Made by a program: the position numbers and the translations under genes
The notes under the pieces: model-generated
Database searches by the model: none
What the model was told of the DNA's origin: nothing
Seen by the model: the letters and a program-made list of their open reading frames with translations, nothing else
NCBI GenBank assembly: GCA_902777385.1
Contig: CACYTP010000016.1
Span: 413 to 57,258, forward strand
DNA from: an uncultured bacterium
GTDB taxonomy: Bacteria; Cyanobacteriota; Vampirovibrionia; Gastranaerophilales; Gastranaerophilaceae
Length of the DNA: 56,846 nt
Reading direction: 5' to 3'
Shown here: in pieces, positions 9,942 through 51,966 of the stretch
Layout of the letters: every line of letters starts with the position of its first letter
How positions within the stretch are numbered: the first letter of the stretch is position 1

Positions 9942-9954
9942 AAACAAACAGGCT

Positions 9955-9981
9955 TGCAAAAACTTAAAAATAGTTTATAAT
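9955..9981 (+). promoter_or_regulatory. Sigma70-type promoter shared by the element-bearing pilin genes (copy 1)
   Basis: TTGCAA, a 15-bp spacer and TATAAT, followed by ACCACGGAGGATATTATCATG. The stretch from TATAAT to the ATG is nearly identical to those at 44.19 kb and 50.93 kb, including the GGAGG ribosome binding site. Confidence 0.6.
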
Positions 9982-10013
9982 GATAATGTATATAAACCAC
10001 GGAGGATATTATC

Positions 10014-10929
10014 ATGATTAGAATTGAGCATAGGGGGGGGGGGCAAAATCCTCTCGTAGCAAGGGTTCTGGCGATTTAGGAAGTTTTGCATATAAGCAGC
10101 TATGCAGCTTGGAAGGGACTGCTTTACCATCTACCAACGGGAGAGGGTTGAAAATCAACTTGAGCAAAGCGAAAGTTAGATTTTTGGGTGAGGAGTCAGA
10201 CCTTTCAGATAGTGTAAAATCTTTAGTATCAACAGCAGAACAAACGGCTGGATTGCCACGGTCGCAAGGCTACTTGCTCCCTCGCAATGACATAAACGTG
10301 TCTATGTAACCCAGTTAAAGAAGTCGGTTTCTGTTCTAAGTCAGGGCTTTACGACAATGATGGGACATGACGGTGTAACAGAATTAAAAGATACGCATGC
10401 ATTTAGCGGTATGGGGGGAGGTGTCTGCAATAGCTCTAATGGGGATGAATACAATATACTTACAAATAATTGTAGTAGTATAAGAGAGGGACTTCAGAAT
10501 GTATTTTCGGGTATTCAGTTCGTTCCGTGTGACGAAACTCAAATAAAAGAGTTGAATGGCTCTAAGCATAGCGAAACAAAATCGGGTACATGTATAGAAT
10601 TTCCCGATGGTTCGGAGATATTTAGTTTAGGGTTTCAGAAAAATCCTATTAATCATACCCACCCTACAGGTGGTTTTATTAGTGAAATATATATTGATAT
10701 AAATGGATCTAAAAACCCAAATACCTGGGGTAGAGATGTTTTTTGGCTAGTTATAGCGAATAATGGAACAGTATATGGTACGGGTTCTCAGCCTGGTGCT
10801 GAATTGCATGGCTTGCCTGTATATTGGCGAACTACAACAGATGCTTTTTTTAAATGTAATACGGAGGCTGATGTTGTGGGCATGGGTTGTGCCGGCAGAG
10901 TGCTTGAAGAAGATGCAATGAACTACTAG
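10014..10929 (+). pseudogene. Broken prepilin-like gene carrying the G-tract element
   Basis: The native leader (ATG at 10014, preceded by GGAGGATATTATC) is followed by 11 G and the ~250-bp element shared with the loci at 44.2 and 51.0 kb. The prepilin signal segment (KxAFTLAEVLITLGIIG) that follows the element in the other copies is absent. Instead the sequence joins at about 10312 to the pilin body, read as QLKKSVSVLSQGFTTMMGHD, and runs in one frame to the stop at 10929 without a usable start before ATG 10357. The body keeps the family motif IDINGSKNPNTWGRDVFWL and a Cys-containing C-terminus. It is therefore a 5'-deleted remnant. A short product from ATG 10357 (190 residues) would lack any export signal. 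Confidence 0.75.
10033..10292 (+). repeat. G-tract plus pilin-leader element, copy 1
   Basis: Eleven G (10033-10043) followed by the element, which ends in CCTCGCAATGACAT. Internal landmarks shared with the other copies are AATCCTCTCGTAG, ACGGGAGAGGG, AGCAAAGCGAAAGT, GACCTTTCAGATAGTGT and the terminal palindromic part from GGATTGCCACGG to CGCAATGACAT. An open frame with the element's usual translation (NGRGLKINLSKAKVRF) is retained. Confidence 0.85.
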
Positions 10930-18081: not shown

Positions 18082-18085
18082 ATGT

Positions 18086-18655
18086 TACATTCGCAACCTG
18101 TTCGTCTTTGTCTTCACAAAGCCGACACTGTTGCTCACACCGGCTTACGCAGTTTTCCGCCTGTGCAATCAAAGATTGCTACGCTCATTACGCATTGCTT
18201 CATTCGCAACGGCGGTATCGTAGTGGTAGTGTTGCCCTGCTTGTCTTGCATTGGCAAGCCAATACCGGCAACACCGGCTTACGCAGCTCCTGTGGGTTTC
18301 GGCACTTCGTGCCTGCAATCCTACGTCGCTATTATTGTGTTCGCAACCTGTTCGTCTTTGTCTTCACAAAGCCGATACTGTTGCTCACACCGGCTTACGC
18401 AGTTTTCCGCCTGTGCAATCAAAGATTGCTACGCTCATTACGCATTGCTTCATTCGCAACGGCGGTATCGTAGTGTTGCGTCCTCAGTTTGCCGGCTCAC
18501 CGCCGCCAAATTCGGACTTAACACCGGCTTACGCAGCTCCTGTGGGTTTCGGCACTTCGTGCCTGCAATCCTACGTCGCAATTATTGTGTTCGCAACCTG
18601 TTCGTCTTTGTCTTCACAAAGCCGATACTGTTGCTCACACCGGCTTACGCAGTTT
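18086..18655. repeat. Mosaic of GC-rich hairpin modules (A-B-C-A-B'-C-A)
   Basis: A gene-free stretch built from three modules. A starts TTCGCAACCTGTTCG; B starts TTTTCCGCCTGTGCAATC; C starts CTCCTGTGGGTTTCGG. A and B each end in CACCGGCTTACGCAG; C reads straight into A. Each module is a chain of short perfect hairpins, for example GCAATC-AAA-GATTGC, GGCAC-TTC-GTGCC, CTTGC-ATTG-GCAAG and CTTTG...CAAAG. It is clearly more GC-rich than its neighbours. Related copies are at 1-101 and 40000-40290. Its last TTACGC supplies the stop codon of the ferredoxin gene on the minus strand. Overlapping open frames across the region are by-products of the repeat. Confidence 0.88.
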
Positions 18656-18890
18656 TTACAGAGTTTAAAATTTCCAAAACTTTTTCTTCGGTTACATTAT
18701 GATATTCTGTACCGTTAACAATGATATTAGGACCTGTTGCACATTTCCCTGCACAGCGATCTCCTGCTAAATCTATTTCGGCTTCCAAACCGTTATCTTT
18801 TATGTAGTTCTCTATCAGTTCAAGGTTCTGTGCATTCCCTCTCGCAAAACATGAACTTCCCATACATACAGTTATATTCAATTTGGCCAT
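18645..18890 (-). CDS. Thioredoxin-like [2Fe-2S] ferredoxin
   Basis: An 81-residue single-domain protein of the NuoE C-terminal/thioredoxin-like ferredoxin family. The four cluster cysteines are in CMGSSC (9-14) and CAGKC (46-50). Such small proteins pass electrons to or from hydrogenases and NADH-linked modules. GAGG lies 7 nt before the ATG. The stop codon TAA lies inside the hairpin repeat, so the last residues (TA) come from or border the repeat. A paralogue sits in the sensory-hydrogenase operon at 33135. It has no operon partner here; the redox partner is unknown. Confidence 0.88.
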   Translation of the reverse strand: MAKLNITVCMGSSCFARGNAQNLELIENYIKDNGLEAEIDLAGDRCAGKCATGPNIIVNGTEYHNVTEEKVLEILNSVKTA

Positions 18891-39020: not shown

Positions 39021-39788
39021 CTACCACGGATAATCGTCTTTTATTTCCCATCCGTCTATAAGTATTACAGCAAGGCAGCCCTTACCATCCTTACTTTTAT
39101 TGCAAAAATCGTTATTTCCAGTTCCTAATATTGTATTTCTGGATTGATAATCCAAATTAGCAGGCAACATTTTACCCTCATGTCCTCTAGCTGTGATATT
39201 ATTTACATTGGGTTTTATAAAATATTCCAAAAAGAAAACATCTTTACCCACTATATTAGGATTTTTTGGACCATTTATATCGAAAATTATTTGCACCAAT
39301 TTATCATGCGTGTTTGCATAAAAACGATTCCCTGCAACACATACAAATGTCCCATCTACAAGATAAAAACGATATGAAGGTGCAAATGACTCATAATTAT
39401 TGAAACTCTGTCCGTTTAATTTGGATATTGGGTAATTGCAATCGCTTGTATTATTATTTTCGCATACTTTGGCAACTTTTAAATATGGTATAACATATTT
39501 TTCTGCAAAAGCTTTACTTGTTTGCCAATTTAAATTGTTTCCCAGTTCCCAAGTACTTGTATCACCATGTTCTGCTATCGCCATCATAGTAGTATTGCTC
39601 AATATAGCATAAACTTTTTTTAACTTTGAAACAGTTTCTTTTTTTTGGTAATTATTAATCAATGTCGGTAATGTCATAGCAGCTACAACACCAATTATTC
39701 CGAGGGTAATTAAAACTTCAGCTAAGGTAAATGCGGATTTTTTCCCTTGTATTTCCATCCCCCTAGACTCAATTCTAGGAATACTCAT
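39021..39788 (-). CDS. Type IV prepilin-like protein (uninterrupted)
   Basis: A 255-residue protein with a class III prepilin signal: leader MSIPRIESRGMEIQGKK followed by SAFTLAEVLITLGIIGVVAA. Cleavage by prepilin peptidase is expected before the hydrophobic helix, though the usual G-FxxxE is replaced by A-FTLAE. The C-terminal domain holds FDINGPKNPNIVGKDVFFLE, the D-x-N-G...GKDVF motif shared by all four pilin-like loci here, and paired cysteines. GGAGG precedes the ATG by 9 nt; TATACT lies upstream. This copy shows the ancestral leader, with AGGGGGATGG where the other three carry the G tract and the element. A minor pseudopilin or adhesin role is inferred. Confidence 0.85.
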   Translation of the reverse strand: MSIPRIESRGMEIQGKKSAFTLAEVLITLGIIGVVAAMTLPTLINNYQKKETVSKLKKVYAILSNTTMMAIAEHGDTSTWELGNNLNWQTSKAFAEKYVIPYLKVAKVCENNNTSDCNYPISKLNGQSFNNYESFAPSYRFYLVDGTFVCVAGNRFYANTHDKLVQIIFDINGPKNPNIVGKDVFFLEYFIKPNVNNITARGHEGKMLPANLDYQSRNTILGTGNNDFCNKSKDGKGCLAVILIDGWEIKDDYPW

Positions 39789-40292
39789 AGTTTCAAATCC
39801 TCCTGTTTTTTATTAGTATAACACATTTTTTACTGATAGTCAAGAGTAGTTTTAGCCAATGGAGAACCATATTTTTATAAAAAGTAACACCGCAATCTTT
39901 ATTAATAAAAACTGCGGTGTACTAAACCCTCTCTCCTCTTCATTTTGTTTCCACCAGAGATTGGAAACAAAGATTTTTACGTCGCTGATATTTCGTAAAT
40001 TCGCTGCTCGTCTTGCTCTCGCAAGTCGACACCGACACTCACATCGGCTGCTTTGGATTATTGCTTCACTCGGACAAGTATTCGCTCCGCTATTACTACC
40101 GCTCATATTGTCCTCATTACATCTCGGATCTACGCTACGTTTCGCCCTACGCAAAATCCGCTACGCTTTTCATTGCTCCTGTGGGTTTCGGCACTTCGTG
40201 CCTGCAATCCTACGTCGCTATTATTGTGTTCGCAACCTGTTTGTCTTTGTCTTCACAAAGCAGATACTGTTGCTTACACCGGCTTACGCTTT
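39789..40292. repeat. Gene-free region with hairpin-mosaic repeat, copy 3
   Basis: This 504-bp gap starts with a hairpin ACACCGCA/TGCGGTGT (39889-39923). From about 40000 to 40180 come diverged GC-richer hairpin modules. From 40186 there are clear C and A modules (CTCCTGTGGGTTTCGG, TTCGCAACCTGTTTG) ending in ACACCGGCTTACGC, directly against the nrdJ 3' end. Overlapping open frames are taken as repeat by-products. Confidence 0.75.
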
Positions 40293-42302
40293 TTATGAGC
40301 AGCCTGAATATCCGCAATTTAAGCAGATAAAACATCCTTCAGCCATTTCAATAGTATTACCGCATTCAGGGCAGGTAACTTTCTTGATTTCGCCTGTCGG
40401 GTTGTATTCTTCTTCCTTAACTTCTTCTACTACAGGTTCTTCTACAATTTCAACCTCTTCAACTTTTGCTTCTTCTTCTTTCTTTTTAGAATCCAAGTTC
40501 ATTGGCTGGAATTGACGTGAGTTGTTTCTGTAAACAGTTATACCTTTCAGATTATTTTCATAAGCTAAAATATAAGCTTCTTCAATATCCTGACGTGTTG
40601 CATGTTCTTCAAAGTTAACTGTTTTTGATACGGCATTATCAGTATGTAACTGGAATGCAGCCTGCATCTTAACATGCCAGTATGGTGAAACATCATGTGC
40701 TGTAACAAAGATGTGTTTAATTTCATCTGAAATTCCGGCAACATGTGCTACAGAACCAGTCTTTGCAATCTCTTTCATCAAATCTTCACTGTACAAACCT
40801 TTTTTAATCATGTAATCTTTGAAGATTGGATTGATTTCAAGCATTTCGGTACCGTCCATAATTAATCTTGAGAATACAAGACCAAATAAAGGTTCTATAC
40901 CGCCTGATGCGGATGCAATCATTGAAATCGTACCGGTTGGTGCAATACATGTTGTAGTAGCATTTCTGATACCAAATTTTTCAATCTGACTATCCAAATC
41001 TGCCCACTGCTCATCAGAAATCATACCTGCTGATTTTCCTCTGTACTTGTTAGTTAAGAATTTCTTATTGTCATAAACACTGCCAGAGAAATTATTAAAT
41101 CTGCCGCGTTCTTTTGACAATTCGATTGATTCACATTTAGATTCATAATCAATAAATTCCATAACTTGAGCACCAAGTTTTGTTCCCTCTTCTGATGCAT
41201 AGGATAAGCCCATCTTCATTAGCATATCAGCCCAACCCATTACGCCTAAGCCAATCTTGCGGTTATTTCTAACCATTTCGGAAATCTTAGGTAACGGATA
41301 ATTGTTTACTTCAATTACGTTATCCAAAAATCTGATAGCCGTTCTTGTTGTGTCAGCTAATCTTTGCCAATTAATTTTATTACCTTCCGGAGTTTCATCA
41401 ACCATCATTCCGAGGTTAATTGAACCCAGATTACATGCTTCGTAAGCCAATAGAGGAACTTCACCGCATGGATTTGTTGATTCTATTTGACCTATTAGAG
41501 GTGTTGGGTTGTCAGCATTCATTTTGTCAATATAAATGATACCCGGCTCACCATTTCTCCAAGCACCGTCTACTATCATATCAAATACTTTCTTAGCACT
41601 AAGTCTGCCGGCTACAGTATTATTTTGTGGATTTATCAAGTCGTAATCAGTACCGGCTTTTAATGCTTCCATAAATTTATCTGTTACTGCAACAGAAATA
41701 TTGAAGTTATTTAGCTTGTTGTTATCACTTTTGCAATTAATAAAATCTAAAATATCAGGGTGATCAACTCTTAGAATACCCATATTAGCACCACGACGTG
41801 TACCGCCCTGTTTAACTGCTTCCGTTGCAGCATTGAATACTTCCATAAATGAAACAGGACCTGATGATACACCCATAGTAGAACGTACTACGCTGTTTTT
41901 AGGTCTTAATCTTGAGAATGAAAAACCTGTACCGCCGCCTGATTTATGAATTAAAGCCGTATTTTTAACTGTTTCAAAAATACCTTCCAATGAATCTTCT
42001 ACCGGCAATACAAAACATGCTGCCAACTGACCTAATTCACGACCTGCATTCATCAATGTTGGTGAATTCGGCATAAAATAACGATTTGTAATCATCTTGT
42101 AAAATCTTTCAGTCAAAGCGTCTACATCTGACTGTGATTTGCCAAATTTTAAATCTCCTGCCGCAATTGTACTTGCAACCCTTCTGAACATATCAGCAGG
42201 AGTTTCTACACAATTGCCGTCCTTGTCACGTTTCAAATATCTTTTTTCAAGAACTTTTACGGCGTTTTCGGATAAGTTTAATTTGTCTTCCACTAAGTTC
42301 AC
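40293..42302 (-). CDS. nrdJ: B12-dependent (class II) ribonucleotide reductase
   Basis: A protein of about 669 residues that reduces ribonucleotides to deoxyribonucleotides using adenosylcobalamin, so it works with or without oxygen. Motifs are MPNSPTLMNAGRELGQLAAC (early), SGGGTGFSFSRLRP, QGGTRRGANMGIL, ESTNPCGEVPLLAYEACNLG, TCIAPTGTISMIASASGGIE and a Glu-rich linker before a C-terminal zinc ribbon (CPECGNT...CLNCGYSGC). GTG 42302 is chosen because GGAGG lies 5 nt upstream; the TTG at 42314 would overlap that site. The stop lies a few bases from a hairpin-mosaic repeat. It is monocistronic, with a 12-bp palindrome TTAACATGTTAA at 42396 upstream. Confidence 0.96.
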   Translation of the reverse strand: MNLVEDKLNLSENAVKVLEKRYLKRDKDGNCVETPADMFRRVASTIAAGDLKFGKSQSDVDALTERFYKMITNRYFMPNSPTLMNAGRELGQLAACFVLPVEDSLEGIFETVKNTALIHKSGGGTGFSFSRLRPKNSVVRSTMGVSSGPVSFMEVFNAATEAVKQGGTRRGANMGILRVDHPDILDFINCKSDNNKLNNFNISVAVTDKFMEALKAGTDYDLINPQNNTVAGRLSAKKVFDMIVDGAWRNGEPGIIYIDKMNADNPTPLIGQIESTNPCGEVPLLAYEACNLGSINLGMMVDETPEGNKINWQRLADTTRTAIRFLDNVIEVNNYPLPKISEMVRNNRKIGLGVMGWADMLMKMGLSYASEEGTKLGAQVMEFIDYESKCESIELSKERGRFNNFSGSVYDNKKFLTNKYRGKSAGMISDEQWADLDSQIEKFGIRNATTTCIAPTGTISMIASASGGIEPLFGLVFSRLIMDGTEMLEINPIFKDYMIKKGLYSEDLMKEIAKTGSVAHVAGISDEIKHIFVTAHDVSPYWHVKMQAAFQLHTDNAVSKTVNFEEHATRQDIEEAYILAYENNLKGITVYRNNSRQFQPMNLDSKKKEEEAKVEEVEIVEEPVVEEVKEEEYNPTGEIKKVTCPECGNTIEMAEGCFICLNCGYSGCS

Positions 42303-44036: not shown

Positions 44037-44148
44037 AACCCTCTCTCAAATTGCTAAGCTAAACTTCGTTTCGCCAAACAATTTTTCTCTCTCCAAGGCA
44101 GGCAAGCATGCCTTTATAGATGCTTCGCTCGTTGGATGCAAAGGTTAG
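44037..44148. repeat. Repeat upstream of element-bearing pilin gene 2
   Basis: CCCTCTCTCAAATTGCTAAGC...AGATGCTTCGCTCGTTGGATGC matches 50733-50852 in order and content with indels. Both copies lie just upstream of the pilin promoters. No coding sense. The rest of 43959-44228 holds only the promoter below. Confidence 0.7.
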
Positions 44149-44168: not shown

Positions 44169-44196
44169 TTGCAGAAGTAAAAAAAAATGTTATAAT
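44169..44196 (+). promoter_or_regulatory. Sigma70-type promoter of pilin gene 2
   Basis: TTGCAG (44169-44174), a 16-bp spacer and TATAAT (44191-44196), followed by the conserved ACCACGGAGGATATTACCATG. Confidence 0.65.
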
Positions 44197-44232
44197 GATA
44201 ATGTACAAAAACCACGGAGGATATTACCATGA

Positions 44233-45204
44233 TTGGATTTAAGTATAGGGGGGGGGGTAAAATCCTCTCGTAGCAAGGGCTTACAGAGTTTCATAGCTGA
44301 GAAGTTCAGCTACTTTGGAATAGGAAATTTTCCCTCTACCGTCGGGAGAGGGTTGAAAATCGACTTTAGCAAAGCGAAAGTCAGATTTTCGGGAGAGAGA
44401 TCAGACCTTTCAGATAGTGTTAAATCTTTAGTATCAACAGTCGAAAAAACGGCTGGATTGCCACGGTCGCAAGACCCCTTGCTCCCTCGCAATGACATGG
44501 GTAGTAAAGCAGCCTTTACACTTGCAGAAGTACTAATCACCCTCGGGATAATCGGTGTAGTAGCTGCAATGACTTTGCCTGCTCTGTTGCAAAATAACAA
44601 GGAAAAGGCTCGTATAACAGCTTTAAAAAAACAATATTCAATATTAAATCAGGCGTATCAGCAAATTGTATTTGAAAATGGCACTCCGGACATTTTTCTG
44701 AGAGGATGTGAAGGTCGTATAAATTGCCAAACAATTATGGCAGAAAAGTTCAAAGAACATTTAAGTATAATAAAGGATTGTGGGTTTGAATCAGGATGTT
44801 TTAAAAATGCGGCGATAAAAAATATTGATGGCTCAAACCATTTAAATTATAATACTAAAACAGATGAATACAGATTAATATTAAAAGACGGTACAGGACT
44901 TATCTTCTTTGTTGATGATGATGGTTATATAAATATAAAAGTTGATGTTGACGGATTTAACGGGGAAAACACATGGGGCAAAGATGTTTTTATTTTTGAA
45001 GTTTCTGATAATCGAATGTTGTTAGTTCCTATGGGTTCAAACTATCCTGACGGCTATAGAAATTCTTGTCTTGAAAATGATGAGGGGTATTCAAAACACG
45101 GATACTCTTGTACGGCTTGGGTTATATACAATGGGAATATGGATTATTTGCATTGTCCCGATAAATTAAAATCCAATAATTGGAATAGTTGTAGAGGTAA
45201 ATAA
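44233..45204 (+). CDS. Prepilin-like protein with the element inserted in its leader (copy 2)
   Basis: The prepilin signal SKAAFTLAEVLITLGIIGVV starts near residue 91 of the open frame, preceded by a segment encoded by the element. The native ATG at 44229 has GGAGG but reads through 10 G into TAG at 44272. The frame that joins the pilin begins at a TTG at 44233, with a second possible start at ATG 44497 inside the element's end (RNDMGSKAAF), which lacks a Shine-Dalgarno. With 9 or 12 G the native ATG would be in frame. The body keeps VDVDGFNGENTWGKDVFIFE and several cysteines (CEGRINC, CGFESGC). A minor pilin or adhesin role is inferred. Translation state is uncertain. Confidence 0.75.
   Translation: MDLSIGGGVKSSRSKGLQSFIAEKFSYFGIGNFPSTVGRGLKIDFSKAKVRFSGERSDLSDSVKSLVSTVEKTAGLPRSQDPLLPRNDMGSKAAFTLAEVLITLGIIGVVAAMTLPALLQNNKEKARITALKKQYSILNQAYQQIVFENGTPDIFLRGCEGRINCQTIMAEKFKEHLSIIKDCGFESGCFKNAAIKNIDGSNHLNYNTKTDEYRLILKDGTGLIFFVDDDGYINIKVDVDGFNGENTWGKDVFIFEVSDNRMLLVPMGSNYPDGYRNSCLENDEGYSKHGYSCTAWVIYNGNMDYLHCPDKLKSNNWNSCRGK
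44248..44496 (+). repeat. G-tract plus pilin-leader element, copy 2
   Basis: Ten G (44248-44257), then the element ending in CCTCGCAATGAC. It is open in the pilin frame throughout (for example GRGLKIDFSKAKVRFSGERS). Contains hairpins CCCTCT/AGAGGG and an ATTGC...GCAAT palindrome. Confidence 0.9.
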
Positions 45205-50732: not shown

Positions 50733-50852
50733 CAGCCCTCTCTTAGCTAGTTAAGCTCAACAAAGTTTCGCAAAGCAAGTGTTCATCTCTTCTTGAAGAG
50801 GTGAACAGGCTAGCCTGCTTTTATAGAAGCTTCGCTCGTTTGATGCAAATGT
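50733..50852. repeat. Repeat upstream of element-bearing pilin gene 3
   Basis: CCCTCTCTTAGCTAG...AGAAGCTTCGCTCGTTTGATGC aligns with 44037-44148. It also has an internal CTTCTTGAAG-type hairpin. It ends about 50 bp before the pilin promoter. Confidence 0.7.
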
Positions 50853-50903
50853 TATTCGTAAATATTTTTATGTAACATTGTATTTAGATGTTAAATTTAA
50901 GGA

Positions 50904-50931
50904 TTGAAATAATCCTAAAAAATGTTATAAT
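50904..50931 (+). promoter_or_regulatory. Sigma70-type promoter of pilin gene 3
   Basis: TTGAAA (50904-50909), a 16-bp spacer and TATAAT (50926-50931), followed by CTCGGAGGATATTATCATG. Confidence 0.65.
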
Positions 50932-50970
50932 AATAATAATGTATGAAAACCTCGGAGGATATTATCATGA

Positions 50971-51966
50971 TTGGATTTAAGCATGGGGGGGGGGGCGAAA
51001 TCCTCTCGTAGTGAGGGTTCTAGCGATTTAGGAAGTTCTGCAGCTAAGCAGTTTTGCAGCTTGGACGATTCTGCATTTCCCTCTACCAACGGGAGAGGGC
51101 AGAAAATCAACTTGAGCAAAGCGAAAGTTAGATTTTCGGGAGAGGGATCAGACCTTTCAGATAGTGTTAAATCTTTAGTATCAACAGCCGAAAAAACGGC
51201 TGGATTGCCACGGTCGCAAGACTCCTTGCTCCCTCGCAATGACATGGGGAAAAGAGCTGCATTCACGTTGGCAGAGGTTTTAATCACCCTCGGCATAATC
51301 GGTGTGGTTGCGGCAATGACATTACCTGCTTTAATGCAAAATTATCAGAAGCAGCAGTTTCTGTCAAGTTTAAAGAAGAATTATACTGTTCTGGCACAGG
51401 CTGTAAAAATTGCACAGGCAAATCATGGTGAAGATTTAGTATCATGGAAGTGTAGCGATTGCCCTTTCCCGAGTTATCATAATGAACAATTTACAATCAA
51501 TGTAATGAAACTTTTTGAGTATCTGGGTGAAGGTGTAAAATTTGCTGAAATTGTTGATAAACATGGTCAACAAGGTTTGACTCCTGTCACCTTCTGTGGT
51601 GTGCCTGAAGCAGAGGGTTATAAAAATATGAATGGCGGTACTATGGATACCGGAAGTTTTGGAGGTTTGTGGTCATCAGGATATGTAGTTCTTCAAGACG
51701 GTTCCTGCTGGTATGTGGGCGAAACTAAAAGATCCAATACATCTGATGTTATGGTTAACGTTGTTATTGATGTAAACGGCAGCAAAAGACCAAATCAAAT
51801 GGGAAAAGATGTATATGTGTTTGATATTCACAGGAATGGTGCTGTAATGCCCCCTGAGGGTGATACCAGAAACTGTAGTCATCTTACATGGGCAAGCGGA
51901 CGCAACTGTTCTGCTTTGATTATGAATAACGGTTGGTCATATCCTAAAAATTATTATTGGAAATAA
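50971..51966 (+). CDS. Prepilin-like protein with the element inserted in its leader (copy 3)
   Basis: The native ATG at 50967 (with GGAGG) is out of frame because the tract holds 11 G and runs to a TAG; 10 or 13 G would restore it. In the pilin frame there are a TTG at 50971, an ATG at 50983 and an ATG at 51244 that directly precedes GKRAAFTLAEVLITLGIIGV. The body contains VIDVNGSKRPNQMGKDVYVF and ends with cysteine-rich loops (CSHLTWASGRNC) and WSYPKNYYWK. It is probably a minor pilin-like surface protein with phase-variable or internally initiated expression. It shares promoter, leader and element with copies 1 and 2. Confidence 0.75.
   Translation: MDLSMGGGAKSSRSEGSSDLGSSAAKQFCSLDDSAFPSTNGRGQKINLSKAKVRFSGEGSDLSDSVKSLVSTAEKTAGLPRSQDSLLPRNDMGKRAAFTLAEVLITLGIIGVVAAMTLPALMQNYQKQQFLSSLKKNYTVLAQAVKIAQANHGEDLVSWKCSDCPFPSYHNEQFTINVMKLFEYLGEGVKFAEIVDKHGQQGLTPVTFCGVPEAEGYKNMNGGTMDTGSFGGLWSSGYVVLQDGSCWYVGETKRSNTSDVMVNVVIDVNGSKRPNQMGKDVYVFDIHRNGAVMPPEGDTRNCSHLTWASGRNCSALIMNNGWSYPKNYYWK
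50985..51243 (+). repeat. G-tract plus pilin-leader element, copy 3
   Basis: Eleven G (50985-50995), then the element ending in CCTCGCAATGAC at 51243. The translation in the pilin frame (NGRGQKINLSKAKVRFSGEG) is open throughout and close to copies 1 and 2. Confidence 0.9.

Follow-up and report, generated by a model that had tools for sequence, protein, structure and literature searches.

Poly-G tracts within the leaders of a large prepilin family suggest phase-variable pilin genes in an uncultured Gastranaerophilaceae bacterium

Overview

Comparison of the sequences makes it very probable that the prepilin genes described here are phase-variable (contingency) genes, switched by slipped-strand mispairing at a poly-G tract located inside a cleaved leader and mostly OFF. 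Three copies of the arrangement lie in the window, i.e. the whole stretch of 56,846 nucleotides that was analysed, which belongs to contig 16 of a 2.32 Mb genome assembled in 37 contigs (99.95% complete). A sigma-70-like promoter and a strong Shine-Dalgarno sequence (SD) would promote translation from an ATG located 6-8 codons before a pure tract of 9-14 G. If slipped-strand mispairing adds or removes a G, ribosomes would enter or leave the prepilin frame, and the two wrong frames would reach a stop soon 3' of the tract. At an in-frame length the tract would be read as polyglycine within the prepilin leader, presumably taken off by the prepilin peptidase, so that the mature pilin should be unaffected by the tract. 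With most loci at an OFF length, each cell would express few pilins of a large repertoire. As a putative second layer, 5' cassettes reaching from the promoter to the early mature codons would be swapped between paralogues, and a dispersed repeat of ~250 bp would be tolerated in frame in the discarded leader and travel with these cassettes.

Anatomy of the window loci

An earlier note on this DNA had focused on the ~250-bp element, and the three copies that it described in the window (10.0, 44.2 and 51.0 kb) are there, all on the same strand (+) and each adjoining the 3' end of a G run. At 44.2 kb a promoter-like TTGCAG-16-TATAAT (44169..44196; read from the sequence and missing from the promoter scan list) precedes the SD GGAGG and the native start ATG at 44229-44231 (together 44216..44231), a G10 tract (44248..44257), the leader with the dispersed element (44258..44511; KSSRSKGLQSFIAEKF...LLPRNDMGSKA) and the prepilin signal AFTLAEV with the pilin body (44512..45204). 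The same order is found at 51.0 kb, with a TTGAAA-16-TATAAT that is a consensus match only and has a TG before its second hexamer (50904..50931), SD GGAGG and native ATG at 50967-50969 (50954..50969), G11 (50985..50995), element-bearing leader (50996..51258) and prepilin signal plus body (51259..51966). At 10.0 kb the promoter-like TTGCAA-16-TATAAT (9954..9981) is likewise a consensus match only, of a kind expected by chance in about the same number, at a position common to the family; it is followed by SD GGAGG and ATG at 10014-10016 (10001..10016), G11 (10033..10043) and the element-bearing leader (10044..10292). The pilin body continues there to 10929 and the prepilin signal is missing, and this copy is a remnant. 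The placement of the element between GGAGG-ATG and AFTLAEV is therefore correct for the 44.2- and 51.0-kb loci and not for this one. Promoter, SD, ATG and tract are common to the three loci as one unit, and the pilin frame is open through the element at both intact loci, as the earlier note had said.

The native ATG had been taken as the start of the pilin. Actually, it is out of the pilin frame at all three loci and meets a stop after 14-21 codons (the peptides read from it are MIGFKYRGGGKILS, MIGFKHGGGGEILS and MIRIEHRGGGQNPLVARVLAI, each ending at a stop), so that the question became one of a length-dependent switch and no longer of an inserted element. At 44.2 kb, 9 or 12 G would put the ATG in the pilin frame, and 10 or 11 lead to stops; at 51.0 kb the in-frame lengths would be 10 or 13. 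The ORFs listed at both loci open from a TTG 4 nt 3' of the ATG. Eight overlapping nine-G matches were found in the window, from three separate tracts of 10-11 G, against 0.02 expected (0 of 100 shuffles). A further prepilin gene on the minus strand (39021..39788) has a 5-G tract with its ATG in frame (MSIPRIESRGMEIQGKKSAFTLAEV); proposed before as a plausible ancestral site, it is better read as a locked-on relative with a shortened tract than as a pristine target. In addition, a different repeat (CCCTCTC...GCTTCGCTCGTT.GATGCAAA) is located upstream of two pilin loci, at 44038-44145 and 50738-50855, and the regions 18082-18718 and 39900-40330 are repetitive and contain ORFs that overlap in several frames (LCLHKADTVAHTGLR...); these are probably dispersed repeats without coding function.

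TIGR02532 scored above its cut-off at 44.2 and 39.0 kb and PF07963 at 51.0 and 39.0 kb, and the window prepilins have the N-terminal methylation/cleavage motif with Glu5. A prepilin peptidase (PF01478 at C21:22398, 43 bits) and several traffic ATPases are present in the genome, and we infer that the leaders are cleaved and that the products act as pilins. Residue -1 is Ala at the window loci (KAAFTLAEV, RAAFTLAEV) and Gly in other members of the family (e.g. KGFTLAEV in L066). A second in-frame insert, GATHVAQSAKPRRAAFTLAE, lies 3' of the prepilin motif with AFTLAE duplicated in L173, L177, L193, L205, L208, L115, L122, L124 and others, both gated (bearing a tract) and ungated; the prepilin peptidase would meet two sites in these proteins.

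G tracts across the genome

Genome-wide there are 35 tracts of at least nine G, all 10-13 long, and 34 of them are found directly behind an SD-ATG in the leaders of one prepilin family. In 27 cases a prepilin N-terminus follows on the same strand, at most 650 bp away; the other eight comprise five at contig ends in the same leader type, the 10.0-kb remnant, one before a broken prepilin and one unrelated. Of the 64 prepilin N-termini of the genome, 37 lack a tract, and many of the ungated genes have an ordinary short in-frame leader, e.g. SD-ATG and then MKQGFTLAEV. At the scorable gated loci the prepilin frame was open from tract to signal in 20 of 20 and the ATG was in frame in none (0/20). 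The tracts are pure G, though other GGN codons also give glycine. Two interrupted tracts, GGGGGAGGGAG in L094 and GGGGGAGGGGG in L100, look like locked-off versions. Since many contig ends fall within these leaders (contigs C10, C11, C14, C17, C25 and C28), the assembly probably miscounts the gated loci. The only tract of this genome outside prepilin leaders is a G10 in L084 (C14:30819), in frame in the Sec-type signal peptide of a secreted protein of 403 residues (MNYRNIKLLIGGGAICLSLLLCSQSLAE).

Distribution and frame states in relatives

A nine-G run located 12-42 nt before FTLAE codons was detected in 82 of 383 genomes of the family, belonging to 15 of 41 genera, and the control with the reversed pattern gave 0. 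A pattern scan of genome contigs retrieved only chance matches in unrelated genomes, and one of viral contigs none. Tract lengths in the relatives were G9-14. One genome per species was compared, and length differences were seen between loci and between species; in one related pair from two genomes (L217/L219) the tracts were equal, G9, with no evidence of variation.

When the best SD-ATG was used to set the frame, 17 of 112 scorable loci in 32 genomes (15%) were on and 95 off, errors in the assembly or reads of homopolymers being able to shift some of the lengths. L087, which has lost its ATG and is ON only through a TTG, was left out of this count. All three frame states are present among these loci with otherwise open frames. 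The number in frame was 0/20 in the genome studied here, 4/17 in G004 and 3/20 in G033. The excess of OFF is significant against one third in frame (binomial p 1.2e-5) and in a within-genome shuffle of lengths (26.9 on average, p 0.0012). Loci of one genome share cassettes or ancestry and the counts are not fully independent, which weakens the statement that they are mostly OFF; a bias towards OFF is likely, not proven, from these frame counts. The frame shift required goes mostly in one direction in the present genome and in the opposite one in G033, which argues against a fixed programmed frameshift, and this candidate was ruled out. A different architecture is found in genome G025, from another genus, where ~38 tracts of G10-TAAACCGCTCATACC (L148-L163) precede prepilin genes and are separated from them by extended CHPELVSGS-type repeats and stops.

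Selection on gene bodies and exchange of 5' cassettes

Purifying selection acts on the bodies of the 'off' genes: in comparisons of this genome with G004, dN/dS after codon 30 was ~0.11 (0.024/0.227) for L092/L115, ~0.41 (0.037/0.089) for L062/L125 and ~0.11 (0.013/0.115) for L065/L117. These low values indicate that the bodies are kept, although the ATGs of L092, L062 and L065 are out of frame here and read-through from them is impossible at all three.

In the same three pairs synonymous divergence fell from 0.8-2.2 over mature codons 1-30 to 0.09-0.23 in the remainder, and the 5' regions, promoter included, were unalike. The neighbouring genes matched at 93-100% for L092/L115 and L062/L125. 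This is most simply read as paralogues exchanging a 5' unit, one edge of which lies in the conserved N-terminus; the unit comprises promoter, SD, ATG, G tract and leader as well as up to ~30 mature codons. Since the whole unit was exchanged in orthologous pairs, much of the spread of the element would be due to cassette exchange and not to insertion alone, which would also explain why promoter, SD, tract and element occur jointly in the three window copies. The insertion at a AGGGGGATGG site put forward by the earlier note is not supported as the explanation of the pattern, given these three pairs. At L076/L121 the flanking genes are alike (97%) in two species and the pilins between them are apparently different, suggesting whole-gene replacement.

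The dispersed element

The window copies are 93-95% identical over ~160 bp, and the other two frames of the element contain stops. It is a composite dispersed repeat that matches the genome at 42 places, partially or in full, not a sequence restricted to three genes as first described. All the in-gene copies examined are in prepilin leaders and the remaining copies are intergenic (L097, L098, L099). Other leaders of this genome carry other in-frame repeats, of several families, at the same position. Leaders without any insert occur here (L066, L074) and in G004 (L113, L116, L117, L123, L125), and outside the genus nearly all leaders are without the element, with a median of ~12 residues after the tract. 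This distribution identifies the short leader as the general form, and the element as derived and lineage-specific, as judged from the leaders compared. The homologous leaders without it, here and in other genomes, together with the intergenic copies, show that it is neither an ancestral leader of all homologues nor, as the in-frame leader copies make clear, only random intergenic sequence. No clean empty/filled pair was found among the orthologous pairs, which differ in the entire 5' unit.

The ATTGC...GCAAT palindrome reported for the element is present, with arms of only 5 bp that are absent from the predicted RNA fold. Folding gave several small hairpins (z -1.0 and -1.3 for the 3' part, -2.1 for the middle part) and no strong palindrome spanning the whole element, and a structured RNA was ruled out by this weak folding. 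For purifying selection on the residues encoded by the element no case was made either, since leader copies differ by 16 nonsynonymous and 11 synonymous changes, a near-neutral mix; the residues appear to be under no clear selection and only the openness of the frame seems to be kept.

Alternative explanations

The comparison with Rickettsia palindromic elements (RPEs), ~150 bp long and inserted in frame (PMC10969869), stands insofar as a dispersed repeat lies in frame in a leader that is presumably cleaved; the G-tract switch had been overlooked. An RPE- or MITE-like mobile element, repeatedly inserted at one place of prepilin genes and with the in-frame residues as the main feature, would agree with the dispersed and intergenic copies, the single open frame and the several repeat families at one leader position. 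We still consider it unlikely, as the three loci have promoter, SD, ATG and tract in common as one unit, the entire 5' unit is replaced in orthologous pairs, the tract is found in 15 genera, almost always next to a short leader, and no target-site duplication was demonstrated. This reading can hold for the origin of the element without explaining the tract. Rather improbable is a silent archive, in which gated loci would donate pilin bodies to ungated expressed loci as pilS does to pilE. The mosaic orthologues, the exchange at the conserved N-terminus and the 37 ungated prepilins of the genome would fit such a role, but the gated loci keep promoter, SD and ATG, and some (17/112) are in frame.

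Two other explanations concern translation itself. Slippage on the G tract during transcription or translation would yield all frames at once, with out-of-frame genes expressed at a lower level, and could reconcile the purifying selection on the bodies with most genes being out of frame; the direction of the required shift, opposite in this genome and in G033, speaks against it, and we consider it improbable. We find it harder still to believe that translation really begins at the TTG 4 nt 3' of the ATG, in the +1 frame, with the window genes then simply on. The pilin frame does open from this TTG at 44.2 and 51.0 kb, but it is 12 nt from GGAGG, where the ATG is at 8 nt, such a TTG is absent from many gated loci of G004 and G033, and other tract lengths in the same leader would break its frame too. 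It is possible that the TTG acts as a weak second start, giving graded expression. Slipped-strand switching from the ATG is the reading that we prefer.

Relation to known systems and implications

Poly-G switching is a well-known kind of switch. The tracts resemble simple-repeat contingency loci in being pure poly-G of at least nine (G10-13 here) and placed so that length sets the frame. In Neisseria, at least nine G or C are taken as a mark of phase variability, and poly-G tracts reach means of 15-18 per genome in meningococcus and gonococcus (PMC5953494). Also in Neisseria, pilC has a poly-G/C tract and the multi-gene opa family has CTCTT repeats in the leader-coding region (PMC5953494, PMC3960869). 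The likeness lies in a simple repeat near the 5' end that sets the frame of a pilus-related or surface protein, the opa repeats even encoding part of the leader. Here, however, it is the prepilins themselves that are gated, ~30 per genome and in another lineage, and the tract is part of a class III leader, which prepilin peptidase would be expected to remove. As in pilE/pilS, pilin paralogues recombine via the conserved N-terminal region, but here 5' control cassettes are exchanged and no single expression locus was seen. With RPEs the element shares being a short repeat dispersed in frame in genes and between genes, with one open frame; it differs in being longer (~250 bp, composite), in its 5-bp arms, in spreading with a promoter-leader unit and in having its in-gene copies at one leader site of one gene family, where RPEs enter many unrelated genes. 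Known type IV prepilin leaders have 6-26 residues with a Gly at the end (PMC4471445); those studied here share the charged leader followed by the hydrophobic FTLAEV helix with Glu5, whereas the element-bearing ones have ~100 and up to ~165 residues, in many cases with Ala as the last one. The literature searched, which covered few subscription journals, contained no report of phase variation for this order. We would be dealing with a switch of a known type, but used unusually widely and in a new setting, with its tract inside the prepilin leader; the element is real but secondary.

More tentatively, and with somewhat less than even confidence, we propose that in this lineage, placed by the protein set of the genome probably among the non-photosynthetic cyanobacterial Gastranaerophilales, the family as a whole maintains a mostly OFF repertoire of tens of pilins, governed by leader G tracts and shuffling of 5' cassettes, from which each cell would express a small random subset and in which the leader would be a refuge for in-frame selfish repeats. 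If phase variation is confirmed, this would be among the larger poly-G contingency sets for a small genome, with 35 tracts in 2.3 Mb, and, within the literature searched, the first poly-G contingency gene set for this gut lineage. A cleaved leader could carry hypermutable DNA and inserted repeats with the mature protein unaltered, and the question of why these bacteria maintain dozens of pilin-like genes becomes testable.
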